Positions 8,552 through 49,675 of a stretch of DNA of 64,000 bases are shown here, piece after piece. The notes beneath the pieces are model-generated. The model saw nothing but the letters and a program-made list of their open reading frames with translations. It was not told the origin of the DNA and ran no database searches. The number at the start of each line of letters is the position of its first letter. The first letter of the stretch is position 1. The stretch lies in assembly GCA_018261935.1 (NCBI GenBank), contig JAGTRP010000006.1, positions 124,001 to 188,000 of the forward strand, written 5' to 3'. The translations under genes were made by a program, and so were the position numbers. The DNA is from Rhodocyclaceae bacterium. Its GTDB lineage: Bacteria > Pseudomonadota > Gammaproteobacteria > Burkholderiales > Rhodocyclaceae.

Positions 8552-10273
8552 ATGGCAGTAACCGCAGCAAACCCTGACACAACGGCTGATATGACATTGG
8601 CCGCCAACCCCCTGAATCGCCTGCGCGAGGCTTTCGAACGTCTGAACAACCAGCAGAAGATGATCCTGCTGGTCACCCTGGCGGCCATTATCGCCCTGAT
8701 CGTCGGGGCCATCCTGTGGAGCCGGCAACCCGATTACAAGGTGCTCTTCTCCAATCTCGGGGAAAAGGACGGCGGCAACATCGTCACTGCCCTCGAGCAA
8801 CAGAACATCCCCCACCGGATGTCCGACAGCGGCGCCATCCTGGTGCCCGCCGAACGGGTCCACGAGGTGCGCCTGAAGCTCGCCTCCCAGGGGCTGCCCC
8901 GGGGCGGCTCGGTCGGCTTCGAATTGATGGAGAACCAGAAGTTCGGCATCAGCCAGTTCGCCGAACAAGTGAATTACCAGCGCGGACTGGAAGGCGAGCT
9001 GGCCCGCACCATCCAGTCCATCGGCGCCGTCCAGTCGGCCCGCATCCACCTGGCCATCCCGAAGCCCTCGGTGTTCGTCCGGGAGGAGCAAAAGCCCACC
9101 GCCTCGGTACTGCTCAACCTCTACCCCGGCCGCGCCCTCGACGCCGGCCAGATCGCCGGCATCACCCATCTGGTGGCCGCCAGCGTGCCCCAACTGCCCA
9201 TTGCCAACGTCACCGTCATCGACCAGAACGGCAGCCTGCTCTCCCAGCTGAAGAGCAAGCTCACCGAAGCCGGCCTCGACCCGGCCCAGATCAAGTACGT
9301 GCGGGAAGTCGAGGACAGCATCATCAAGCGCATCGAGGAAATCCTCAAGCCCGTGCTGGGCCCAGAGAATTACAAGGTGCAGGTGGCGGCGGACGTGGAT
9401 TTCTCCCAGACCGAACAGACCGCCGAAAGCTACAAGCCCAACAACAGCCCGGCCAGCACCAGCATCCGCAGCCAGCAGAATGCCGAAACCGCCAACGTCA
9501 ATCAGGCCGTCGGCGGCGTCCCCGGGGCCCTGACCAACCAGCCGCCCGTGCCGGCCACCGCGCCGCTGACCGCGCCCCCCGTCGGCGGCGTCCCCGGCCA
9601 ACCGGGCAAGCCGGGCGAACCCGGCAAGCTGGAAGCGGCCGGCATCACGGCACCGTTGCAGGCCGCCGGCCAGCCGGTCAGCACCTCCAAGAACGCCACC
9701 ATCAACTACGAAGTGGACAAGACGGTGCGCTACACCAAGCAGGCCATGGGCAGCATCCGCCGCCTGTCCGCAGCCGTGGTGGTCAATTACCGAAAGGAAG
9801 CCGGCAAGGACGGCAAGCCGGTAGCCAAGGCCCTGCCGGAAGCCGAAATGAAGCTGATCAACGATCTTGTGCGGGAAGCCATGGGCTTCAGCAAGGATCG
9901 GGGGGACACCCTGTCCATCGCCAATTCCTCCTTCACCGCCGCCGAAAAGATCGAAACCGCCGTGGCAATCTGGAAGGATCCCGAAAACATCGCCTTCGCC
10001 AAGGACCTGGTCAAATACCTGCTGATTGCGGCCATCGTCGCCTACCTGCTCATCAAGGTGGTGCAGCCGCTGCTGAAGACCATGTTCCCGCCCCCCGAAA
10101 CCGCCGGGGCCGAAGAGACTGCCGCCCTGGCCGGCGAACCGGGCCTCCTGGAAGAGGAAAACGTGGAGCTCAACCACTACGAGGCCAAGGTGCAGAAGGC
10201 GCGGGACATCGCCCAGAATGATCCGAAGGTCGTGGCCAACATCATCAAGGACTGGATGACTCCCAATGGCTAG
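8552..10273 (+). CDS. fliF: Flagellar MS-ring protein FliF
   Basis: Forms the membrane ring on which the motor is built. It has 573 residues from the ATG at 8552; a TTG directly in front is a less likely start. The first membrane segment (about 32-52, MILLVTLAAIIALIVGAILW) is followed by the YscJ/FliF ring-building domains (about 55-230), with GFELMENQKFGISQFAEQVNYQR. A Pro/Gly-rich, collagen-like linker lies near 345-365. The second membrane segment is near 490-510. The acidic cytoplasmic tail (VELNHYEAKVQKARDIA) is the FliG-binding part. It overlaps fliG by 8 bases. Confidence 0.97.
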   Translation: MAVTAANPDTTADMTLAANPLNRLREAFERLNNQQKMILLVTLAAIIALIVGAILWSRQPDYKVLFSNLGEKDGGNIVTALEQQNIPHRMSDSGAILVPAERVHEVRLKLASQGLPRGGSVGFELMENQKFGISQFAEQVNYQRGLEGELARTIQSIGAVQSARIHLAIPKPSVFVREEQKPTASVLLNLYPGRALDAGQIAGITHLVAASVPQLPIANVTVIDQNGSLLSQLKSKLTEAGLDPAQIKYVREVEDSIIKRIEEILKPVLGPENYKVQVAADVDFSQTEQTAESYKPNNSPASTSIRSQQNAETANVNQAVGGVPGALTNQPPVPATAPLTAPPVGGVPGQPGKPGEPGKLEAAGITAPLQAAGQPVSTSKNATINYEVDKTVRYTKQAMGSIRRLSAAVVVNYRKEAGKDGKPVAKALPEAEMKLINDLVREAMGFSKDRGDTLSIANSSFTAAEKIETAVAIWKDPENIAFAKDLVKYLLIAAIVAYLLIKVVQPLLKTMFPPPETAGAEETAALAGEPGLLEEENVELNHYEAKVQKARDIAQNDPKVVANIIKDWMTPNG

Positions 10274-32192: not shown

Positions 32193-33041
32193 TTATTGGC
32201 CGGCCGGATTGGGAACGGCCACCTGGGAAACGGCTCCCTGCGCGTTCCCGGGCAGCTGGTCCGAAGACTTGTGGTCTTTCAGCTCGGTCGGCTCTTCGGG
32301 ACGATTTGAATCGATCAGGATACTCACCCGCCGATTGCGCGCCCGGCCGTCCGGTGTCGTATTGGTTTCCAGCGGCCGGGTGTCACCATAGCCGATGGCG
32401 GTCAGGCGCTCCGCCCCGACGCCGCCGTCGTTGAAAAGCCGCAGGACCGTCGTGGCCCGCAGAGCCGACAATTCCCAATTGGAAGGGAATTGCTGGGTAC
32501 TGATGGGCAGATTGTCGGTGTGGCCTTCGATGGTGATGGGAAAATCCGCCCGGGCCAGGACATCGGCGATGGCCCGCAGGGCGCTCATGGAGGCTGGCTC
32601 CAGCTTCGCCTGGCCAGCGGCGAACAGCACGCTGTCGTTGATCTCGATGGTGACTCCCCGGCTGGTTTCCAGAAGGCGGACCTTGCCCTGGGCGACGAGG
32701 GGCTGCAAGGCATCCATGATGTCCTTGGCGACACTCTTCATTTTCTGGCGCTGCTCGCTCTTCTTCTGTTCCAGCAGCCGGTCGGGGTTTCCCAACGGCT
32801 TCGGACTGAGGGGCGGCGCCCCCTGGATCACGACGACGGGTTGGCCGCCGGGAGCGCCCGCAACGCTGCGGAAGGCACTGGTCAGGGAATCCGAGAGCAC
32901 TTTGTACTTGCCTTCGTTGACCGACGAGATGGCATACATCACCACGAAAAAGGCGAACAGCAGGGTGATGAAATCGGCATAGGAGACCAGCCAGCGCTCG
33001 TGGTTCGGATGCTCCTCTTCGCTGCGCCGCCGACGGGCCAT
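32193..33041 (-). CDS. motD: Flagellar motor stator protein MotD (MotB family)
   Basis: Peptidoglycan-anchored stator subunit, second copy in the window. It has 282 residues. The membrane helix contains the proton-binding aspartate (WLVSYADFITLLFAFFVVMY, Asp23). The OmpA-like domain (about 140-245) has ITIEGHTDNLPI, NWELSALRATTVLRLF and RAYGDTRP-like ERLTAIGYGDTRPL. The position after motC in the flhB-fliA operon matches Pseudomonas motCD rather than motAB. The tail is polar. Confidence 0.93.
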   Translation of the reverse strand: MARRRRSEEEHPNHERWLVSYADFITLLFAFFVVMYAISSVNEGKYKVLSDSLTSAFRSVAGAPGGQPVVVIQGAPPLSPKPLGNPDRLLEQKKSEQRQKMKSVAKDIMDALQPLVAQGKVRLLETSRGVTIEINDSVLFAAGQAKLEPASMSALRAIADVLARADFPITIEGHTDNLPISTQQFPSNWELSALRATTVLRLFNDGGVGAERLTAIGYGDTRPLETNTTPDGRARNRRVSILIDSNRPEEPTELKDHKSSDQLPGNAQGAVSQVAVPNPAGQ

Positions 33042-33784
33042 TAGAGAAAATAGCCCTTCAGACGCCCCTCGATGATGCGGGGGTTGTCTCCGACCGCAAT
33101 GCCCACGAGTCCGTCCACCAGCATCTCCCGGAGGGTCACCATGCGCCCGATGTGGTATTTGAGCTTGCCAGCGATGGGCAGATACACCAGGTTGGCCAGC
33201 CCGACGCCGTAGATGGTGGCGACAAAGGCGGTAGCGATCCCGGCGCCGAGCTTGGAGGGATCGGTCAGGTTCTCCATGACCTGGATGAGCCCCATGACCG
33301 CCCCCAGGATGCCGATGGTCGGCGAGTATCCTCCCGCAGCCTCCCAGATCCTGGCGGATTGCTTCATCTCGTCCTCGAAAGTACCGATTTCCACTTCCAG
33401 AAGCTCCCGCAAGCGCTCCGGATCGGCTCCGTCCACCAGCATCTGCAGACCTTTCCGGGCGAACGGATCCTTCAGCTGGCCGATAAAATTATCCAGGGCG
33501 AGGAGTCCTTCCCGCCGGGAGACCTGACTCCAGGCGTTGATCTGGTCGACCAGTCGCTTGTGCTCGATCATCGGCGGCACCCAGACCCACTGGACCATCT
33601 GGATGCCCCGTTTGAAGACGTGGAACGGGCTCTGCAGCATCACCGCCCCCAGGGTGCCGCCCCCGACGATGACCAGGGCCGTGGGCTGCAGCAGGGAGGC
33701 CAGGTGGCCCCCTTCCAGAACCTGTCCCCCGATGATGGCGACCAGCCCGATCACCAGGCCGGCGATGCTGATCTTATCCAACAT
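33041..33784 (-). CDS. motC: Flagellar motor stator protein MotC (MotA family)
   Basis: Ring-forming stator subunit paired with MotD. It has 247 residues and four membrane helices. It starts MLDKISIAGLVIGLVAIIGG with the GG(H/S)xxSLLQPTALVIVGGGTLGA segment. The cytoplasmic charged region includes the FliG-contact area. GGYSPTIGILGAVMGLIQVM and ATIYGVGLANLVYLPIAGKL are the pore helices, including the conserved proline. It overlaps fliA upstream by 11 bases and motD downstream by 1 base. Confidence 0.94.
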   Translation of the reverse strand: MLDKISIAGLVIGLVAIIGGQVLEGGHLASLLQPTALVIVGGGTLGAVMLQSPFHVFKRGIQMVQWVWVPPMIEHKRLVDQINAWSQVSRREGLLALDNFIGQLKDPFARKGLQMLVDGADPERLRELLEVEIGTFEDEMKQSARIWEAAGGYSPTIGILGAVMGLIQVMENLTDPSKLGAGIATAFVATIYGVGLANLVYLPIAGKLKYHIGRMVTLREMLVDGLVGIAVGDNPRIIEGRLKGYFL

Positions 33785-40239: not shown

Positions 40240-42126
40240 CTAGGCGAAAGCCGCCAGGGCGCGCATGCCGCGATCCACATCCAGGTGCTGGCTGACGTCG
40301 GACAGCAATTCCTTCATATCCAGGATGAGCACAATTTGGCCATTGGACAGGGTGGTGACGCCGGCCACGCCCCGGGGACGGAAATCCTCCAGGGACTTGA
40401 TGACGGCATCGTCCCGGCCCGCGAAGCTATCCACGCCGAGGATGAAGCTGCGCTCCGCCGTCTGCATGAAGACGCCATACTCCGGATGGCGCTCCAGAGG
40501 CCAGCCGAGGAGCCTAGCCAGGGAGATGACCGGCAGGACCTCGCCGCGGACCACCAGGGTCTCCTTGCCTCCCACCTCCTGTATCTTGTCGTGCTCGATG
40601 GGAAGAATCTCCCGCACCAGGGACAGCGGCAGGGCAAAGGGCTGGTCGCCCAGCAATACCAGCAGCACCGGCAGGATGGCCAAGGTGAGGGGCAGGTAGA
40701 TGATGAAGACCGAACCCTTGCCCGGTTCCGAACGGATGTCGATGGAACCGTTCAGTTTCTGAATGTTGGTCTTGACCACGTCCATGCCCACGCCGCGGCC
40801 GGACACATCCGAGATCTGGGTCTTGGTCGAGAAACCGGGCAGGAAGATGAGGTTGAGACTCTGGCGCTCGTCCAGGGTATTGGCCTCCTCCTCGCTGATC
40901 AGCCCCTTTTCCACCGCCTTGGCGCGAATGCGCTCGGCACTCATGCCGCGTCCGTCGTCGGCGATGATGAGGACGATATGGTCGCCCTCCTGCCGAGCCT
41001 CCAGGCGCACCAGGCTCTTTTCCGGCTTGCCGCCGGCGCGGCGCTCCGCCGGCATTTCGACGCCGTGGTCTACGGCATTGCGAATAAGGTGGATGAGGGG
41101 ATCGGCCAGATCCTCGATCATGGTCTTGTCCACCTCGGTCTCCTCACCCGCGAGGACGAGCTCCACATCTTTGCCCAGTTGGCGCGCCAAATCGCGGGCA
41201 ATGCGCGGATACTTCTGGAACAGGCGACCGATGGGCTGCATGCGGGTCTTCATGACCGAGTTCTGCAGATCGGACACCAGCAGATCGAGCTGGCTGACCG
41301 CCTGGTCGAGGGCATGCAGGGTTTCCGAATCCCGTTTGCCTGCCAAGATATCGGCCCGCAGGCTGGTAAGGCGGTTCTTGGTCAGGCCGATTTCACCCGA
41401 CAGGTTCAAGACCTGGTCCAGGCGCGAGGTATCCACCCGAATGGTATTTTCCCGGGCCCGCTCTTCGACCCGGCGGCCTACCGGTGCGGCACCGCCCCCC
41501 GGCTTGTCGGCGGTCCGGCGGCCATAGACGGAAGGCGAGACCTCGGGAGACTGGGCCACCACCTCTGCCTTGGTGATCACTTCACCCTGGGCGGCCGGGA
41601 CGGCTGCCACCGGCTGCCCGGTGACCGCGGCATGCAGGGCATTCCAGTCGGGTTCCCCCGGTTTGCCTTGGGCTGTGGCTGCTGCCGGCTGCTGGCTCGG
41701 GACGACCGCCGGAGCCGGGGCAGCAACCGGTGCCTCGCCACTCAGGGCCCCCTTCAGATTGGCAATGACTTGCGTATCGGCCGGATGGGGCTGCACGCCT
41801 TGGGCCAGTTCCCCGAACATGTCGCGCACCCCCTTGGTGGCGGCCATGATGGTGTCCATCAATTCCGGCGTCAGACCCAGTTCGGCATTGCGCAGGCGAT
41901 CGAAGAGGTTCTCGGTCAGATGGCAGAGGGTCACCAGTTCCGTGGCGTTGAGAAAGCCCGCCCCACCCTTGATGGTATGGAAGCCCCGGAAGATGTCATT
42001 AAGAAGCCCGCGGTCGTCGGGTGTCTTTTCCAAGTCGACCAGTTTATTGTCGACATCCGAAAGCAGATCGCTGGCCTCCTGCAGAAAGTCCTGCAGAAGA
42101 TCCTCCATTCCGGCGAAATCGCTCAT
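40240..42126 (-). CDS. cheA: Chemotaxis histidine kinase CheA
   Basis: Central kinase of the chemotaxis pathway. It has 628 residues from the ATG at 42126 (MSDFAGMEDLLQDF). The Hpt domain has His50 in RGFHTIKGGAGF. A Pro/Ala-rich linker of ~130 residues follows, with no recognisable P2 (CheY-binding) domain. The P3 dimerisation helix contains RLDQVLNLSGEIGLTKNRL. P4 has HLIRNAVDHGVE, IADDGRGM and GRGVGMDVVKTNI. The P5 CheW-like domain is C-terminal. It is last in the operon, 13 bases after cheZ, and followed by a strong terminator. Confidence 0.96.
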   Translation of the reverse strand: MSDFAGMEDLLQDFLQEASDLLSDVDNKLVDLEKTPDDRGLLNDIFRGFHTIKGGAGFLNATELVTLCHLTENLFDRLRNAELGLTPELMDTIMAATKGVRDMFGELAQGVQPHPADTQVIANLKGALSGEAPVAAPAPAVVPSQQPAAATAQGKPGEPDWNALHAAVTGQPVAAVPAAQGEVITKAEVVAQSPEVSPSVYGRRTADKPGGGAAPVGRRVEERARENTIRVDTSRLDQVLNLSGEIGLTKNRLTSLRADILAGKRDSETLHALDQAVSQLDLLVSDLQNSVMKTRMQPIGRLFQKYPRIARDLARQLGKDVELVLAGEETEVDKTMIEDLADPLIHLIRNAVDHGVEMPAERRAGGKPEKSLVRLEARQEGDHIVLIIADDGRGMSAERIRAKAVEKGLISEEEANTLDERQSLNLIFLPGFSTKTQISDVSGRGVGMDVVKTNIQKLNGSIDIRSEPGKGSVFIIYLPLTLAILPVLLVLLGDQPFALPLSLVREILPIEHDKIQEVGGKETLVVRGEVLPVISLARLLGWPLERHPEYGVFMQTAERSFILGVDSFAGRDDAVIKSLEDFRPRGVAGVTTLSNGQIVLILDMKELLSDVSQHLDVDRGMRALAAFA

Positions 42127-42139
42127 ATTCTGCCTCCTC

Positions 42140-42991
42140 TCAGAATCCGAGACTGTCCAGCAGGTCATCCACCTGCTGTTGGTTGACCACCACGTCGTTA
42201 CGGCCTTCGGCGTTGATTACCGGTCCGTTCATCAGGCTGTTCACTTCATCGGTACGACGCGTGTCCGGAAGCACCTCGATCAACACACCCATCAAGCCGC
42301 TTTCTAGATTCTGGGCCAGGGCGACGATCTTCTTGATGACTTGTCCGGTGAGATCCTGAAAATCCTGCGCCATCATGATCTCGGTAAGCTGCGCATGGGT
42401 CGCCCGGGTTTTCTGGGGTAGCTGGTCCTTCAGAAAAGCCCTGGTCTCTCCCGCCAACTGCTTGAATTCCTCGACACTCAGTTCGTTGGCGAACAGCTTG
42501 TCCCAACGGTCACCCAGGGCCGCCGCCCCACTTTCCATTTCCTCGACGAGGGGATTGGCGATATCCGTCGCATTCAATACCCGGCAGGCGGCCTGCTCGG
42601 TCAGGTTGGCGATATAGGCCAGGCGATCCTGCGCATCCGGCAGCGCCGAGACCGTCTGCTCGAGAAGCTTGTCATAGCCCAGTTCGCGCAAGTTGTCATG
42701 GAGCTCCCGGGCCATATGGCCTATGCGGTTGAAAACCGACTCCTGGCCCGGCCACGACTCGACCGCTTCGCCTGCCGCCGGGGCCGCGGCTGCAGGAACG
42801 GTTTCAGGGGGCGCAGCCGCATATCCCGAAGCGACGCTGTCGAACAGGTCCTGCAATTCTTGGTCATCTCCGGACTTGTCGACGGCCGGAGCCGGAGTCA
42901 CCGGCTTGGGGGCCGGGGTCGCCGGCTTCGCATCGGCAGCGATGCTGTCGAAGAGTGCTTCCAGTTCGGAGGAATCGTTATTCGCGGTCAT
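42140..42991 (-). CDS. cheZ: CheY-P phosphatase CheZ
   Basis: Dephosphorylates CheY-P. It has 283 residues from the ATG at 42991; an upstream in-frame ATG would read into cheY. An acidic, Pro/Ala-rich N-terminal extension (about 1-75) precedes the helical core. The catalytic segment IMMAQDFQDLTGQVIKKI contains the active-site glutamine. The C-terminus QQQVDDLLDSLGF is the CheY-anchoring helix. It sits directly after cheY. Confidence 0.95.
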   Translation of the reverse strand: MTANNDSSELEALFDSIAADAKPATPAPKPVTPAPAVDKSGDDQELQDLFDSVASGYAAAPPETVPAAAAPAAGEAVESWPGQESVFNRIGHMARELHDNLRELGYDKLLEQTVSALPDAQDRLAYIANLTEQAACRVLNATDIANPLVEEMESGAAALGDRWDKLFANELSVEEFKQLAGETRAFLKDQLPQKTRATHAQLTEIMMAQDFQDLTGQVIKKIVALAQNLESGLMGVLIEVLPDTRRTDEVNSLMNGPVINAEGRNDVVVNQQQVDDLLDSLGF

Positions 42992-43004
42992 GGCAGCTTT
43001 TCCT

Positions 43005-43400
43005 TCACCCCTGCGCCATTTTTTCAAAAATCTTGTTGAGCTTTTCGGACAGCGTACTGGCGGTAAACGGCTTGACGATATATCCGCTGGCACCCGCTTG
43101 GGCGGCGGCGATGATGTTTTCCTTCTTGGCCTCGGCGGTAATCATGAGCACCGGCAGGTGCTTCAGACTAGGCGTCGCCCGAATGGATTGCAGCAGGGTC
43201 AGGCCATCCATATTGGGCATATTCCAGTCGGTCACGACGAATTCGAACCCACCGCCTTGCAGCTTCTGGAGGGCAATAGCCCCATCCTCAGCCTCGTCCA
43301 CATTCGTAAAACCCAACTCCTTGAGCAAATTGCGCACGATACGGCGCATGGTGGAGAAATCGTCCACCACGAGAAATCTCATTTTCGGATCAGCTGCCAT
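43005..43400 (-). CDS. cheY: Chemotaxis response regulator CheY (intact copy)
   Basis: Single-domain receiver that binds FliM when phosphorylated. It has 131 residues. The acidic pocket is Asp13/Asp14 ([21 protein letters not shown]), the phosphorylation site is Asp58 ([12 protein letters not shown]), the switch Thr lies in LMITAEA, and the lysine in YIVKPF. It resembles enteric CheY closely. A truncated second cheY lies at 47.4 kb. It is placed between cheV and cheZ. Confidence 0.97.
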
Positions 43401-43418: not shown

Positions 43419-44357
43419 TTATCTTTCGAGCAGGGGACGCAGGGTGTCTGCCAGCGCCTCCGCGTCGAACTTGGCGACATAGGCGTCAACCCCTACCGCT
43501 TTCCCCATGGCCCGGTTGGCCTCCGACGACAGGGACGAGTGCATAACCACCGGCACGCCTTCAAAACGTGAATCCGCCTTGATATTCCTGGTCAGCACGT
43601 AGCCATCCATTTCCGGCATTTCGGCGTCCACCAGGATCAGGCGAATTTCGTCCCGCAGGCTCTTGCCGCTCTGCTGAATATGGGCCGCGATGCCCTGCAG
43701 CCGGGTCCACGCTTCCGCCCCGTTGGTCGCGTGCTTGTGCTTGACGCCAAGCTTGTCCAGAACCTCGGTAATCTTTCGTCTCGCCACGATCGAATCGTCG
43801 CAAAAGAACACGCTGGTATCGGCATCCACCCGGGCCGGATGGATGTCCACGATGATGGCATCGCCGAAGGCGTTGGCCAGAATCTGTTCGACGTCCAGAA
43901 TGGACACGAGGCTGCCGTTTGCCAGCTCGATAACTGCCGTGATCAGCCCCTGGTTGGCCGACAGCACGCTTTCCGGTGCTTTCACCCGTTCCCAGTCGAC
44001 CCGGATGATGCGATCCACCTCGTGAACCAGGAAACCAAGGGTGCGCTTGGAATACTCGGCCACCATCATGGTCTTGCCCAACCCAGGGGGCGTCCCTTCC
44101 AGCTGCATGAAGGGAGCCAGGGACAGCACCGGTATAACGTTGCCCCGCAGGGATATCAAACCCTCGACACCCCGGGGCATGTTAGGGGTCTTGGTGATAT
44201 GGGGCGTACGCCCGACCTCCCGCACCTTGAAGACGTTGATTCCGAATGTCTCGCGGGTCCCGAGCGAAAACAGGAGGATCTCCATCTTGTTCGAGCCGGC
44301 CAGCTGCGTGCGCGCATCGACACTTTCCAGCAGATTCTTGTTTTCCACCAAATTCAT
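43419..44357 (-). CDS. cheV: Chemotaxis coupling protein CheV (second of a tandem pair)
   Basis: CheW-like adaptor fused to a receiver. It has 312 residues. The CheW domain (about 20-165) begins LAGSNKMEILLFSLGTRETFGINVFKVREV and contains MVAEYSKRTLGFLVHEVDRI. The receiver (about 180-312) has the acidic pair in FFCDDSIVARR and the phosphorylation site in ILVDAEMPEMDG. It is homologous to the gene directly upstream, so the pair arose by duplication or joint acquisition. No cheW is present in the window, so these proteins may couple receptors to CheA. Confidence 0.94.
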   Translation of the reverse strand: MNLVENKNLLESVDARTQLAGSNKMEILLFSLGTRETFGINVFKVREVGRTPHITKTPNMPRGVEGLISLRGNVIPVLSLAPFMQLEGTPPGLGKTMMVAEYSKRTLGFLVHEVDRIIRVDWERVKAPESVLSANQGLITAVIELANGSLVSILDVEQILANAFGDAIIVDIHPARVDADTSVFFCDDSIVARRKITEVLDKLGVKHKHATNGAEAWTRLQGIAAHIQQSGKSLRDEIRLILVDAEMPEMDGYVLTRNIKADSRFEGVPVVMHSSLSSEANRAMGKAVGVDAYVAKFDAEALADTLRPLLER

Positions 44358-44375: not shown

Positions 44376-45341
44376 TTAGGCCGCCTTGGCGGGCAACTGC
44401 CCTGCCAGACGGCGGGCCAGCGTCTCGGCCAGGCGTTGCGGTTCGAATTTCGGTACATATTCGTCTACGCCAACCGACTGGCCGAGCTTTTGATTCGACA
44501 TCCCCGACAAGGAGGAATGCATGATGACCGGGACGCCCGCAAAGCGCGGGTCCGACTTGATAGTCTTCGTTAGGATGTAGCCGTCCATTTCCGGCATTTC
44601 GATGTCGGTCAGGACGAGGCTCACCAACTCGGACACGGGCTTGCCAATGACTTGGGCGTAGCCGGCGATTTTCTCAAGTTCTATCCACAACTGGCGACCA
44701 TTGACCGCTCCGACGGATTTGACCCCCATGGCATCCAGAGTCCGCCCGATCTGCCGGCGGGCAACGGTCGAATCGTCGCAATAGAACACCGTGCAATCAG
44801 GATGGTCCACCTGGGCCACGCCTCGATACATGGCCTCGTCGTCATAGTTGGTGGTCTCGGAAAGAATCTTCTCCACATCCATCATCATGACCAGGCGGCC
44901 GTCCTCCAACTCGGTCACTGCCGTCACCAACCCACCAGTCTGCGCCAGGAGCATCTCCGGCGGCACCCGCATCTTGCTCCAATCCAGGCGCAGGATGGTA
45001 TCCACGCCTTCGACCAGGAAGCCCTGGGTATGGCCGGCGTACTCGGTGACGATCATGATGTCCCGAGGCGTGTCCGCTGCAATGCCCGTATACTTGGCCA
45101 GATCGATGACCGGCACCAAGGCGCCTCGCAGGCTGACCATACCTTCCACTGAAGCCGGCATATCGGGCGCCGCCGTGATCGGCGGCGTGCGCATCACCTC
45201 GCGCACTTTGAAAACGTTGATGCCATAGGTCTCACGCCGGCCGGTACGCTGATCAACCCCAAGGAAGAAAAGAAGTATTTCCAGCTTATTGGTGCCCGCA
45301 AGCTTGGTCCGCGCATCAATGTTCTTGAGCAGCTCCGACAT
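44376..45341 (-). CDS. cheV: Chemotaxis coupling protein CheV (first of a tandem pair)
   Basis: A 321-residue CheW-receiver fusion. The CheW domain contains LAGTNKLEILLFFLGVDQ, TYGINVFKVREVMRTPPIT and MIVTEYAGHTQGFLVEGVD. The receiver has FYCDDSTVARRQIGRTLD and the phospho-acceptor in LVLTDIEMPEMDG. It differs from its neighbour mainly by a short DQRTGRRE insertion near residue 31 and by the receiver face. A sigma-28 promoter lies ~160 bases upstream, leaving a long untranslated leader. Confidence 0.94.
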   Translation of the reverse strand: MSELLKNIDARTKLAGTNKLEILLFFLGVDQRTGRRETYGINVFKVREVMRTPPITAAPDMPASVEGMVSLRGALVPVIDLAKYTGIAADTPRDIMIVTEYAGHTQGFLVEGVDTILRLDWSKMRVPPEMLLAQTGGLVTAVTELEDGRLVMMMDVEKILSETTNYDDEAMYRGVAQVDHPDCTVFYCDDSTVARRQIGRTLDAMGVKSVGAVNGRQLWIELEKIAGYAQVIGKPVSELVSLVLTDIEMPEMDGYILTKTIKSDPRFAGVPVIMHSSLSGMSNQKLGQSVGVDEYVPKFEPQRLAETLARRLAGQLPAKAA

Positions 45342-45499: not shown

Positions 45500-45526
45500 T
45501 TATCGACCGCCTCGGGGAAAGCTTTA
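45500..45526 (-). promoter_or_regulatory. Sigma-28 (FliA) promoter of cheV-cheV-cheY-cheZ-cheA
   Basis: On the minus strand TAAAGCTT (45526-45519), an exact 11-base spacer, then GTCGATAA (45507-45500): 7 of 8 at both elements. The first TAA of the -35 is the stop codon of the STAS gene. This places the cheV-cheA operon under FliA, separately from the cheR-cheB-STAS unit. The leader to the cheV ATG is ~150 bases and contains only weak hairpins. Confidence 0.88.
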
Positions 45527-45829
45527 GCTGATCTTGAAAAGCTTGCCGAAATTGGCAATATCGAGTACCTGCTTGACGCTTCCCTTGACGTTCTCGAGGG
45601 CCACTTCCTTGCCAACGCTATTCAGCTTGTCCCGGAGCATGAGAAGCATGCCGAGGGCGGAACTGTCGAGGTAATCGACCCCGGCGAAATCGACGGCAAC
45701 CCCCTGAACGCCGACGTCGGCGATCAGCGGCTCGTAGGTGGAACGGAATTCCCGATGGGTGTTGAAGTCGAAACGTCCGGAAAGCTTGATGACGGCCCTG
45801 CCCCCCTCTGCACTGACAGCTGTTTGCAT
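45524..45829 (-). CDS. STAS-domain protein (anti-sigma-factor antagonist type)
   Basis: A 101-residue single-domain protein of the SpoIIAA/STAS fold. It opens with GGRAVIKLSGRFDFNTHREF. The phosphorylatable serine region reads DYLDSSALGMLLMLRDKL, with two adjacent serines at the usual place, and VKQVLDIANFGKLFKI ends the fold. Such proteins normally cycle with a serine kinase/anti-sigma factor and a phosphatase; neither is in the window. Stand-alone STAS genes near che loci are common in betaproteobacteria, role mostly unknown. It follows cheB by 74 bases. Confidence 0.9.
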   Translation of the reverse strand: MQTAVSAEGGRAVIKLSGRFDFNTHREFRSTYEPLIADVGVQGVAVDFAGVDYLDSSALGMLLMLRDKLNSVGKEVALENVKGSVKQVLDIANFGKLFKIS

Positions 45830-45903: not shown

Positions 45904-46476
45904 TCAACGATTCAGCGTCAATAGAATCCGACGCGCCATGTCGTCCAGACTGCATTGCTCCTCGACGGCCCCTATCAGGAAGGCTTCCCGAGGCATGCCA
46001 TAGACCACGCAGCTGGCTTCATCCTGGCCAAAGGTACGTCCCCCCGCTTGGCGCATGCGCAAGAGCCCCTGGGCACCATCCTTTCCCATGCCGGTCAGGA
46101 TGACGCCAATCGCTTGCCGGCCCACCACTTGAGCAGCGGAGTCGAACAACACATCGACCGCCGGCCTATGCCGGTTGACCGGCGGTGTAGTCAGCAACTC
46201 AGTGACATACCCCGCCCCCCCTCGGCGGACGCGCAGATGGGAGTGTCCCGGCGCGATATGGACGGTACCGTTCTCCAGCTGCTCATTGCCCTGGGCCTCG
46301 ATAACCTTGGGCGCACACAGACTGTCCAGTCGGCGTGCAAAGGAGGGTGTAAACGACTCGGGCATATGCTGAACCACAAGAATGGGCGGACAGTTCGCCG
46401 GCATACCGAGGAGAAAATGCTTGATTGCTTCCGTGCCGCCGGTGGAGGCACCGACGAAAATGATTTTGTTCACCAT
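45904..46476 (-). CDS. cheB: CheB methylesterase domain without receiver
   Basis: Removes methyl groups from (and deamidates) chemoreceptors. It has only 190 residues; full CheB has ~350 with an N-terminal receiver. The whole chain is the catalytic domain with an intact Ser-His-Asp triad: Ser11 in FVGASTGG, His37 in VVQHMPE and Asp133 in TGMGKDG. The ATG at 46476 is 44 bases after cheR, and no receiver-like sequence lies between. Activity would therefore not be gated by CheA phosphorylation in the usual way. Confidence 0.9.
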
Positions 46477-46520
46477 GCCTGACCGTGGGTAAGCGTGTTC
46501 CAGCGCTGCCTTCCTGCCCC

Positions 46521-47438
46521 TCAGTTCTCGCCGCGACCGCCCCGAGCCGGCACATATACCGTCTTGCCGAGAGAGCGAAAGATGTCCGCCGCATGGAGAA
46601 AGCTTTCCGAGTGGCCGGCGAACAGCAGCCCATCATCCTGCAGCAGTGGAGCAAAGCGCGACAAGATCTTGTACTGGGTCGGCTTGTCGAAGTAGATCAT
46701 GACATTGCGGCAAAAGATCACATCCAGAGGACCCCGGATGGGCCAGTTGGAGTCGAGCAGATTGATGCGTTGAAAGTCGATCATGCGCCGCAGTTCGGGG
46801 CGCACCGACACCATGCCATCCTGCCCGCCCGTTCCCTTGAGGAAAAACTTCCGCAGGCGCTCGGGCTCCATTTTCTCCACCCGTTCCATTGGATACACCC
46901 CCTGCTGGGCGGTGGCGAGGACGTTGGTATCAAGGTCGGAAGCCAGGATCGACACTTGGGAAGCGCCACTGCCGAGGGCTTCAAGCACCGTGATGGCCAG
47001 GGAATAGGGCTCCTCGCCAGTGGACGAAGCGCAGCACCAGATACGGATTGGGCGCCGGGTGCCGATCTTCTTGAGACGTTCGGCAAAGATCGGAAAGTGG
47101 TGGGGCTCCCGGAAAAACGAGGTCAGATTGGTCGTCAGGGAATTGACGAAGCGCTCCCATTCCTCGGCATTGCCATGCTCCAGGCCGTCAAGATATTCGC
47201 TGAACGACTTCTTGCCGGTAGCGCGCAGACGCCGCGCCAGGCGGGAGTAGACCATGTCTTGCTTGATCGGCGAGAGGGAAATGCCCGCGTGGTGATAGAT
47301 GAGCTGGCGGACACGCTCGAAATCGACCGTGGAGAAGGCAAATTCCCGCTCCATGGCCTCCCTGGCGGGAACGACAATGCGGGGTGCAGCGGGGAAAGGC
47401 ACCGGGCGGCCGCCCCCTGTCTTGGGCAAATCACTCAT
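46521..47438 (-). CDS. cheR: Chemoreceptor methyltransferase CheR
   Basis: Adds methyl groups from SAM to chemoreceptor glutamates. It has 305 residues. After a Pro/Arg-rich start, the N-terminal helical domain contains [36 protein letters not shown]. The SAM-binding motif is [17 protein letters not shown], and [22 protein letters not shown] follows. Its ATG overlaps (ATGA) the stop of a short open frame that is a cheY remnant, so its translation is coupled to that remnant. Confidence 0.96.
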
Positions 47439-47557
47439 GATGATCTAGAACCCTGCCCACTCGTCGCTCCAAGACTCGCCGGCAGGAATTTTGAGTGTAC
47501 AGCGCACCATCCGACGGACGATGTCGAATCATCGACTGCAAGAATAGTCTTTGCCAT
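47435..47557 (-). pseudogene. Remnant of a second cheY, truncated and frameshifted
   Basis: From the ATG at 47557 the frame reads MAKTILAVDDSTS, the exact opening of a canonical CheY with its Asp-Asp pocket, after an AAGGGG ribosome site. One base is then missing in codon 14. In the shifted frame the family continues as VRRMVRCTLK, matching CheY helix 1 (IRQMVSFTLK in many CheY). Similarity stops after ~25 codons; about 100 codons, including the phosphorylation site, are gone. The original frame stays open for 40 residues and ends ATGA over the cheR start, so it may now act as a leader peptide. Confidence 0.85.
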
Positions 47558-47649: not shown

Positions 47650-48600
47650 CTATCCGGCGTTTGGCTTACTGCCGACCGGCAGCTTGAGGCTTTCCGGCGT
47701 CGCCTCGCCCTGCGTTCCGACTTCGGTTTCCGGCCCCTCCTCCTGGAGGACTGCGATTTCCGTCTTCTTGTTCATCACGATGATGCTGATGCGGCGATTG
47801 ACGGGGTTGAGGGGATCATTCTTGTCGAACAGGACTGCCGAGGCAAGCCCGACCACACGCAGAACTTTGGCATCTTCCATGCCGCCTGTGATGAGCTCGC
47901 GGCGGGAGGCGTTGGCGCGATTGGCCGACAGCTCCCAGTTTGAAAAGCCCCGGTCGCCGGCCGAGAACTGGGCAGCATCCGTATGCCCGGCGAGGCTGAT
48001 GCGATTCGGCACCGCATTGAGGGTCTTGCCGATTTGCCGGAGGATTTCCTTGGTATAGGGCTTCAGTTCGGCGCTGCTGAGGTCGAACATGGGGCGGTTC
48101 TGCTCGTCGACGATCTGGATGCGCAAGCCTTCGGCCGTAATGTCCAGGAGAATCTGGTTCTTGAACAGGGCGAGCTGCGGGTTTTCGGCGATGGCCCGCT
48201 CGATCCTGGCCTTCAGATTTTCCAGGGCTTCCTGCTCCTTGCGCTGGTACTCGAGGGACGTCTCCTTCATGACGAATTTCTTGGTTTCACTCTCGATTTC
48301 GCCCCGTTTGACGTGCCCTGCCTGCCGGGTCAAATCCTTGCCGCCGCCCTTGATGACGCTGGAAGAATCGCCGGAGCCAGCCCCCCCCTGCAGAGCCACC
48401 TTGAGCGGCGTCTTGAAATACTCGGAGATACCCTCGAAATCCCCCTTGGCAGTGGATCCCAGCAGCCACATCAGGAGGAAGAAGGCCATCATCGCCGTCA
48501 TGAAATCGGCGTAGGCAAGCTTCCAGACGCCACCATGGGCGCCGTGCCCCCCCTTCTTGATCTTCTTGACGATTATGGGGCGCTGGGAGTCGTCAGTCAT
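47650..48600 (-). CDS. motB: Flagellar motor stator protein MotB
   Basis: Peptidoglycan-bound proton-channel subunit. It has 316 residues. A Lys/His/Gly-rich N-terminus precedes the membrane helix with Asp32 (KLAYADFMTAMMAFFLLMWLLG), the same position as in E. coli. The plug and linker follow, then the OmpA-like domain with RISLAGHTDAAQ, NWELSANRANASRREL and NRRISIIVMN. This is the MotB type; the motD at 32.2 kb is shorter and different. It follows motA by 32 bases. Confidence 0.96.
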   Translation of the reverse strand: MTDDSQRPIIVKKIKKGGHGAHGGVWKLAYADFMTAMMAFFLLMWLLGSTAKGDFEGISEYFKTPLKVALQGGAGSGDSSSVIKGGGKDLTRQAGHVKRGEIESETKKFVMKETSLEYQRKEQEALENLKARIERAIAENPQLALFKNQILLDITAEGLRIQIVDEQNRPMFDLSSAELKPYTKEILRQIGKTLNAVPNRISLAGHTDAAQFSAGDRGFSNWELSANRANASRRELITGGMEDAKVLRVVGLASAVLFDKNDPLNPVNRRISIIVMNKKTEIAVLQEEGPETEVGTQGEATPESLKLPVGSKPNAG

Positions 48601-48632
48601 GGCGGCTCATCCGATAACGGGCCTGAGCCCGG

Positions 48633-49493
48633 TCACTTGCCCTTGCGAGCCTTGAGGTCGTCCTCAAGCTCGATAAAGGTCGGACGATCATGGGAATACA
48701 GCACCTTGCGGCCGAACTCCACCGCCACCTGCGGCGCATAGCCGGACATGGAGGCGAGCAGGACGGCTTTCATGCACAGGTACATCTTGGCCTCTTCGTC
48801 GGCCTTCTGCTCCAGCAAGTTGCCGATGGGCCCGATGAAGCCGTAACACAGCAGAATACCAAGGAAGGTGCCCACGAGAGCGGCGGCAATCAGCTTGCCA
48901 AGCTCCGACGGCGGGATACCCACCGACTCCATGGTATGCACCACCCCCATCACCGCGGCGACGATACCGAAGGCCGGCAGGCCGTCGGCCACGCGGCCGA
49001 TAGACATTACCGGCACATGGCTCTGCTGGTGATGAGTTTCGATTTCTGAATCCATCAGATTCTCGATCTCGAAGGCATTCAGGTTGCCACCCACCATCAT
49101 GCGCAGATAATCGGTCAAAAACTCGACCGCATGGTGATCGGCGGTAACGCTGGGGTACTTGCCGAAAATCGGGCTCGATTCCGGGTTCTCGACGTCGCCT
49201 TCGATGGACATGAGCCCTTCCTTGCGGACCTTGCTCAGGATCTCGTACATGAGCGCCAGCAGGTCCATATAGAGGGCCTTGTTGAAGCGGGATGCTTTGA
49301 GGGCGCTGGGGATGGCCTTGAAGGTAGCCTTGATGCCGGCCGGCGTATTGCCGATGAAAAAGGCGCCGCCAGCGGAACCCGCGATGATGATGAGCTCAAC
49401 GGGCTGAAGGAGCGCTCCCAGATGGCCGCCGGCCAGTGTGAAGCCCCCGAGCACCGCGCCCAGGACGACTACATACCCGACGATGACGAACAT
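48633..49493 (-). CDS. motA: Flagellar motor stator protein MotA
   Basis: Ring subunit that pushes FliG. It has 286 residues from the ATG at 49493, chosen because MFVIVGYVVVLGAVLGGFTLAGG aligns with the start of E. coli MotA and an AGGGGG site lies upstream; in-frame ATGs at 49535 and 49598 would add an unrelated leader. Other family parts: LLQPVELIIIAGSAGGAFFIGN, the FliG-contact loop with charged residues, VADGLPAFGIVAAVMGVVHTM with the conserved proline, and AALVGTFLGILLCYGF. Confidence 0.95.
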   Translation of the reverse strand: MFVIVGYVVVLGAVLGGFTLAGGHLGALLQPVELIIIAGSAGGAFFIGNTPAGIKATFKAIPSALKASRFNKALYMDLLALMYEILSKVRKEGLMSIEGDVENPESSPIFGKYPSVTADHHAVEFLTDYLRMMVGGNLNAFEIENLMDSEIETHHQQSHVPVMSIGRVADGLPAFGIVAAVMGVVHTMESVGIPPSELGKLIAAALVGTFLGILLCYGFIGPIGNLLEQKADEEAKMYLCMKAVLLASMSGYAPQVAVEFGRKVLYSHDRPTFIELEDDLKARKGK

Positions 49494-49510
49494 CCAATAC
49501 CCCCTACACG

Positions 49511-49531
49511 GCACCGCTGGCTTAGCGGTGC
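49511..49531 (-). promoter_or_regulatory. Hairpin in the motA leader
   Basis: GCACCGCT (49511-49518) pairs perfectly with AGCGGTGC (49524-49531) around a 5-base loop, 18 bases upstream of the motA ATG. There is no T-run on either strand, so it is not a terminator. Placed this close to the ribosome site it could tune translation or mark a protein- or RNA-binding site. A weak -10 (TACAAT, minus strand 49560-49555) lies just upstream; no sigma-28 element is visible. Confidence 0.4.
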
Positions 49532-49675
49532 TCATCTCATTGTTTGCTTCCTCTATTGTAGCCAGGGTCATCCGGGAGGCGCAAAGGATATCGCGCAAGT
49601 TTGGCTCTCCTGCCCGATCCGAAGCAACGTCAGGGTGCTACACTGAGATTCCGCCCATCGATCCGACTCCTTTAC

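Follow-up and report, generated by a model that had tools for sequence, protein, structure and literature searches.

A dual chemotaxis cluster, probably reduced by two deletions, with a receiver-less CheB in a Rhodocyclaceae bacterium

A CheB protein without a receiver domain is reported together with CheV in Campylobacter jejuni (PMC3879368), and receiver-less CheB is presented as a marker of the F3 chemotaxis class of Campylobacterota (PMC9321776). In Escherichia coli equipped with CheBc, precise adaptation was described as possible with no phosphorylation feedback, accompanied by higher cell-to-cell variability (PMC5809149). Translational coupling between neighbouring che genes has been described in E. 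coli as well (PMC2716512), and the pentapeptide that tethers CheR has a published consensus with W at position 2 and F at position 5 (PMC7390727). Nearer to the present locus stands the intact dual che cluster of its relatives. The first-pass annotation of this DNA had given the order in related bacteria as motA-motB-cheY-cheA-cheW-(mcp)-cheR-cheD-cheB, and this is matched by the intact loci L005 (with L180) and L025, which read motA-motB-(MCPx)-cheY1-cheA1-cheW-mcp-mcp-cheR-cheD-cheB. The closest relative found, L005 (Azonexaceae bacterium XMAS_Bin21), retains the whole cluster: on its contig motA, motB, MCPx, cheY1 and cheA1 lie upstream (L180), followed by cheW, two mcps, cheR, cheD, cheB and a STAS gene, and downstream of the latter stand cheV, cheV, cheY2, cheZ and cheA2.

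In the window, the stretch of 64,000 nucleotides analysed here, the minus strand carries in order motA, motB, a frame of 40 codons, cheR, cheB, a STAS gene, cheV, cheV, cheY, cheZ and cheA (Table 1). The likeness to the intact dual clusters of L005 and L010 (Dechloromonas agitata is5) extends to the gene order on both sides, to CheR proteins that are 76-79% identical, and to the place of the cheR start and of the mcp end that precedes it; unlike the window, these relatives retain cheY1, cheA1, cheW, two mcps, cheD and a two-domain CheB (350-355 aa). In our reading (probability about 0.9), a dual chemotaxis cluster has been reduced here and two deletions have left their scars; the Azonexaceae-like host would thereby have been deprived of most of one signalling system. 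The two genes on the left border are taken to be motA and motB, and the same genes were matched in relatives; the frame listed as cheZ is presumed to be that gene, and similar genes of relatives hold the same place. A second motA-motB-like pair occurs in the window at 32193-33784, apart from the one at 47650-49598.

Table 1. Genes and gene relics of the chemotaxis locus, in window coordinates.
Feature	Position	Strand	Evidence or remark
Present-day 40-codon open frame	47435..47557	-	TGA overlaps cheR ATG (47438) as ATGA
cheY1 relic, codons 1-23, one base missing near codon 13-14	47490..47557	-	CheY1 PSSM; one-gap alignment
mcp (chemoreceptor) 3' relic IPAGESWSDEWAGF	47448..47489	-	PSSM of mcp C-termini; two-template alignment
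Best-supported part of mcp relic, SWSDEWAGF	47474-47448	-	
EWAGF, position of CheR-tether pentapeptide	47448..47462	-	relatives mostly EWEEF
mcp-frame stop TAG	47445..47447	-	6 bases ahead of cheR ATG
cheR, intact, CheR_N + CheR domains	46521..47438	-	Pfam PF03705, PF01739; 79% identity to L005
cheD relic CTG GAA CAC GCT TAC (L/E/H/A/Y)	46489..46503	-	profile of cheD starts
AGGAAGG ribosome site before cheD relic, strong	46515-46509	-	-7.4 kcal/mol
cheB, methylesterase domain alone	45904..46476	-	start = ATG 46476 or CTG 46503
STAS-domain gene, retained from ancestral cluster	45524..45829	-	Pfam + relatives' gene order
cheV, first copy	44376..45341	-	CheW + Response_reg domains
cheV, second copy	43419..44357	-	CheW + Response_reg domains
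cheY of retained system	43005..43400	-	Response_reg domain
cheZ (presumed), open frame as listed; true start may be further downstream	42140..43093	-	relatives' similar genes, same place
cheA of retained system	40240..42168	-	Hpt, H-kinase_dim, HATPase_c, CheW domains
motB + motA (presumed), left border	47650..49598	-	matched to same genes in relatives

The left edge of the first scar lies in the 40-codon frame, which opens with MAKTILAVDDSTS, the canonical start of CheY1. It had been claimed that this frame begins with 13 residues of CheY and that, after the loss of one base, CheY continues in another frame, and both points were borne out. Against a profile built from 32 CheY1 starts of relatives, those that begin with MAK, residues 1-13 scored 48.3 bits, while the runner-up among the 101,331 stop-free 13-codon stretches of the window reached 7.0. 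Residues 14-24 were scored apart; the shifted frame (VRRMVRCTLKI) ranked first of 104,809 at the expected place with 11.4 bits, a result that is weak by itself because the runner-up scored 9.7. Allowing a single gap raised the identity with cheY1 of L005 from 38 to 52 of 69 bases, and across all eight relatives compared it rose from 35-40 to 47-52 of 69, the gap falling at base 37 or 39 in each. Resemblance to CheY then extends to about codon 23 (RRMVRCTLK here, RQMVSFTLK in L005). A comparison with L005 by eye gives one amino acid change and six silent codons for codons 1-13, and three amino acid changes (Q to R, S to R, F to C) with three silent codons for codons 15-23; this contrast, too small for statistics, would fit CheY-like constraint until fairly recently and decay afterwards. 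Pfam assigned the 40-aa frame to no family at E<=1, and of the complete Response_reg domain that CheY requires about the first 23 codons remain. Annotators should be warned that the frame is not a CheY gene; its N-terminal sequence and its position behind motB, orthologous to that of cheY1 in relatives, mark it as a deletion remnant of cheY1.

The right edge is found in the third frame of the same 123-base stretch, which ends in SWSDEWAGF-stop; the form seen ahead of cheR in intact relatives is SLDDEWEEF-stop. The gene ahead of cheR in relatives is an mcp, mostly ending in ...DDEWEEF-stop, and the mcp-like end of the window, IPAGESWSDEWAGF-TAG, stands six bases from the cheR ATG, compared with 1-5 bases between mcp stop and cheR ATG in 13 relatives (those of the 18 examined in which the first ATG after the mcp stop, at most 7 bases off, is in frame with cheR). 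When the last 14 codons up to the TAG were scored against a profile of 34 mcp C-termini (38 were listed, and four without this type of end were dropped), they ranked first among the 1,581 frame ends of the window, with 6.9 bits against -5.8 for the next; the tail is nevertheless clearly diverged, since the 34 genuine ends all score at least 20.7 bits. An alignment to two templates, a cheY start followed by an mcp end, outscored every one of 100 tail shuffles when the templates came from 12 of 14 relatives, but not when they came from the other two (L020, L030). In the four printed alignments, cheY gives way to mcp between bases 73 and 91, the exact junction varying with the template. TGCCGGC, found in the window as in the mcp tails of L009 and L022, was considered as a microhomology at the junction and is not claimed, because the switch point moves between templates. 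EWAGF-TAG has the tether form xWxxF before a stop, with W2 and F5 as in the published consensus (PMC7390727), while the receptor itself is absent.

To judge by the sequence, these 123 bases contain both edges of one deletion; an insertion in place of a deletion is ruled out by the pieces of both outer genes, which lie in place. Comparison with related motB-cheY-cheR loci likewise supports a deletion from cheY to cheR. The first-pass annotation had gone further in stating that everything from mid-cheY to cheR is gone: the block is indeed deleted relative to relatives, but some mcp sequence, its last ~9-13 codons, is still present.

The first deletion appears to have spared the initiation region of cheR, located in relatives within the final codons of the mcp. 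The likely cheR ribosome site in the 13 comparable relatives is GGGAAGAG in ten, GGGAGGAG in two and GGGAAGAA in one, and the window carries GGGCAGGG at this position. Its energy of -3.3 kcal/mol compares with -4.2 in ten, -10.2 in two and -3.3 in one of these relatives, and the site is thus slightly weaker than in 12 of the 13; its distance from the ATG also exceeds that in L006, L009 and L010 by 4 bases. The remnant, as had been noted from the letters alone, has a ribosome site of its own (AAGGGG, -6.4 kcal/mol, fair at about the best 5% of 1,000 random 15-mers) and overlaps cheR as ATGA at 47438. The 40-codon frame may have been kept as a translational leader, with a start at 47557, a stop at the ATGA and re-initiation on cheR that sets the level of CheR; che genes of E. 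coli show such coupling, and a stop/start overlap is named as its usual setting (PMC2716512). We regard this as possible, though less likely than not. Against it stand the non-synonymous changes of the remnant relative to L005 CheY1 (the three of codons 15-23 given above) and the position of the mcp stop, which in the 13 relatives already precedes cheR by 1-5 bases, so that any coupling would be old and not specific to the scar. The remnant frame is most likely a passive relic of the deletion; it may couple translation into cheR, with which the site energies are compatible and no more.

Beyond what the first-pass annotation described, a second deletion after cheR appears to have removed cheD and the receiver domain of CheB. 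Downstream of the cheR stop come AGGAAGG, the codons CTG GAA CAC GCT TAC and then, in frame, the CheB methylesterase. In relatives cheD starts at the corresponding place, most often with GTG CAA/CAG CAC GCC TAC (8 of the 20 starts used); L006, L009, L011 and L013, for example, have GTG CAA CAC GCC TAC against the window's CTG GAA CAC GCT TAC. Scored against the 20 cheD starts, which were picked from 43 listed by the pattern GTG-NNN-CAY, a pattern that favours the window's third codon, the five codons ranked first among 127,970 window positions, with 0.0003 such matches expected in the spacer. This five-codon, start-like relic is all of CheD at the locus, and the two CheD matches of the genome lie on contigs C7 and C26, not at this cheR. 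The CheB of the window matches PF01339 alone (residues 6-184, E 7.5e-63), a methylesterase domain without the N-terminal receiver, whereas CheB of L010 consists of PF00072 and PF01339; residue 4 of the former aligns to residue 164 of the latter, and the two are 81% identical. The break appears to fall in the CheB linker, which reads GGVINKIIFVG in L005, so that VINKIIFVG there corresponds to MVNKIIFVG in the window. Since the ribosome site of CTG 46503 (-7.4 kcal/mol) is better than that of ATG 46476 (-2.4), CheB may start at the CTG as a five-codon CheD-CheB fusion, a guess in view of the rarity of CTG starts.

The genes of the missing block were not found elsewhere. No CheY1 orthologue was found in the rest of the genome, where the best match to L005 CheY1 reaches 53%, against 73-94% for the CheY1 of other relatives (34 of 34, leaving out two matches of 30-34% that are other receivers); by this comparison CheY1 is gone and was not relocated. 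The best match to CheA1 in the genome is 51% and covers only 404 of 775 residues, compared with 63-73% for full-length CheA1 in 21 near relatives; more distant full-length CheA1 proteins reach only 51-58%, so this comparison is weaker than that for CheY1, and CheA1 was very likely lost likewise. An artefact, be it a block that exists in the cell and dropped out during assembly or a spurious one-base gap, is very improbable. The genus is represented by a single genome, known as an assembly, in which an error at the gap is possible; against an artefact stand the position of the site inside contig C4 (of which the window is 124001-188000), at least 16 kb from either end, an assembly that is 100% complete with 0.83% contamination, the lack of a close CheY1 match on any other contig (CheA1 being less decisive), the presence of two separate scars with partial genes at both, and a gap that lies outside homopolymer runs.

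The distribution of the block was followed in a sample of 80 CheR loci of relatives and the window; a locus counted as carrying it when cheA1 or an mcp lay immediately upstream of cheR. A quick tree was built from CheR, CheV1, CheV2 and CheA2 with 46 rows (SH-aLRT was the only support computed, as in all trees). In it L005 is the nearest row to the window (87% over 1,532 columns), and the two fall inside a 23-row clade (95% SH-aLRT) in which the block is kept in 20 rows and absent from the window and L071, L007 being without a clear state. Block state requires at least 4 changes on 39 rows, after removal of L007, L039, L042 and L056, which have no clear state, and of the long rows L045, L068 and L082. 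As such a count cannot tell gain from loss, it is the relics, both edges of one scar together with a second scar, that give the direction of change in the lineage of the window, namely loss. That the short motB-cheR order is ancestral, with the cheY-cheA-cheW-mcp block inserted in relatives and the cheY resemblance something else, is scarcely credible: although 19 loci have motB called directly before cheR, and the two profiles detect no cheY or mcp relic in 18 other such reduced spacers or in that of L082, the window has pieces of both outer block genes, ordered and correctly placed, and nests among relatives that carry the block. A single loss shared by the window and eight Propionivibrio-type reduced loci was rejected (p-AU 1.6e-6), the group having been named after the tree was seen. 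No weight is given to an AU test with 18 reduced rows (p 3e-40), whose rejection is trivial because L042 and L056, which were placed among the others, are very likely reduced themselves.

The state of CheB was recorded at 76 loci (the 80 and the window, minus five in which cheR was not called): 59 have a full CheB and 12 a receiver-less one, while in 4 it was not seen and in 1 it is not clear. The twelve receiver-less proteins are those of the window, of L057 and of ten reduced loci, one of them L042, at which no motB was called; receiver loss requires at least 3 changes on 44 rows. Among the 19 loci with motB directly upstream of cheR, none has cheD after cheR and 9 keep a full CheB, which makes block loss and receiver loss separable. 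The same separation is seen in L071, a betaproteobacterial MAG nested among Azonexus, which has lost the block and cheD and has kept a two-domain CheB. At L082 (Uliginosibacterium sp. 31-16), a 135-aa frame with an Hpt domain, resembling the start of CheA1, lies between motB and cheR at 9454-9861; it represents either an independent partial loss with a different scar or a freed Hpt protein.

The events at the locus of the window may be pictured as follows. A first deletion would have joined codon ~23 of cheY to the last codons of an mcp, removing the rest of cheY1, cheA1, cheW and at least one mcp, and a one-base loss, before or after it, would have broken the short fusion frame. A second deletion would have joined codon ~5 of cheD to the CheB linker. 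CheR and the unregulated catalytic domain of CheB would presumably now serve the adjacent cheV-cheV-cheY-cheZ-cheA system, as the gene order suggests, with adaptation by methylation proceeding without phosphorylation feedback on CheB; CheV, which has a receiver, could supply feedback in its place. Elsewhere the genome has three further cheR and three further cheB genes, and it gives 35 receptor-domain hits, so that cross-service is conceivable. Receptor ends were read at 30 loci of these 35 hits; none has WxxF, and four are tether-like with FxxF. These four (DFEKF, DFERF, QFERF and DFVQF) lie on contigs C26, C7 and C40 (L136, L137, L140, L141); those on C26 and C7 adjoin a cheW, near a cheR, and C40 has CheW and CheA matches too.

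Deletion relics are ordinary, and what distinguishes this locus is that both edges and a second scar are visible. It is an instance of gene decay of an instructive, not unheard-of kind, to which the natural receiver-less CheB and the recurrence of the reduced arrangement add interest. Tentatively, and with rather less than even confidence, we suggest that Rhodocyclales repeatedly collapse the double cluster: cheY-cheA-cheW-mcp and cheD would be deleted, CheR kept, and CheB reduced to its catalytic half in several lines, while methylation-based adaptation would pass to the CheA/CheZ system, with the two CheV proteins, not CheB phosphorylation, giving feedback. If this is true, the window represents one such lineage with its scars still fresh. 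Whether or not it is, the relics make datable and testable a reduction of two chemotaxis systems that recurs in several related lines, and they show a natural route to a CheB without a phosphorylation switch. Among the titles and beginnings of abstracts returned by a literature search, none names this reduction in Rhodocyclales.

Reduced motA-motB-cheR-cheB-cheV-cheA loci occur in Propionivibrio, Accumulibacter, Rhodocyclus and similar MAGs (L036, L040-L042, L044, L047, L048, L051, L059). Like the window, they show neither the block nor cheD, and their CheB is receiver-less (204-230 aa as called); unlike the window, they belong to a different part of the tree, and in eight of the nine spacers (all but that of L042) the two profiles detect no cheY or mcp relic. 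The F3 systems of Campylobacterota, as described for C. jejuni and for the class, share with the window a receiver-less CheB found together with CheV (PMC3879368, PMC9321776), but are also defined by the operon cheVAW and by a CheA that includes a receiver; in the window the genes run cheV-cheV-cheY-cheZ-cheA, and CheA gives no Response_reg match in Pfam. The CheBc of E. coli has the same domain content as the CheB of the window; it is an engineered catalytic domain, while the truncation in the window is natural and accompanied by two CheV proteins.
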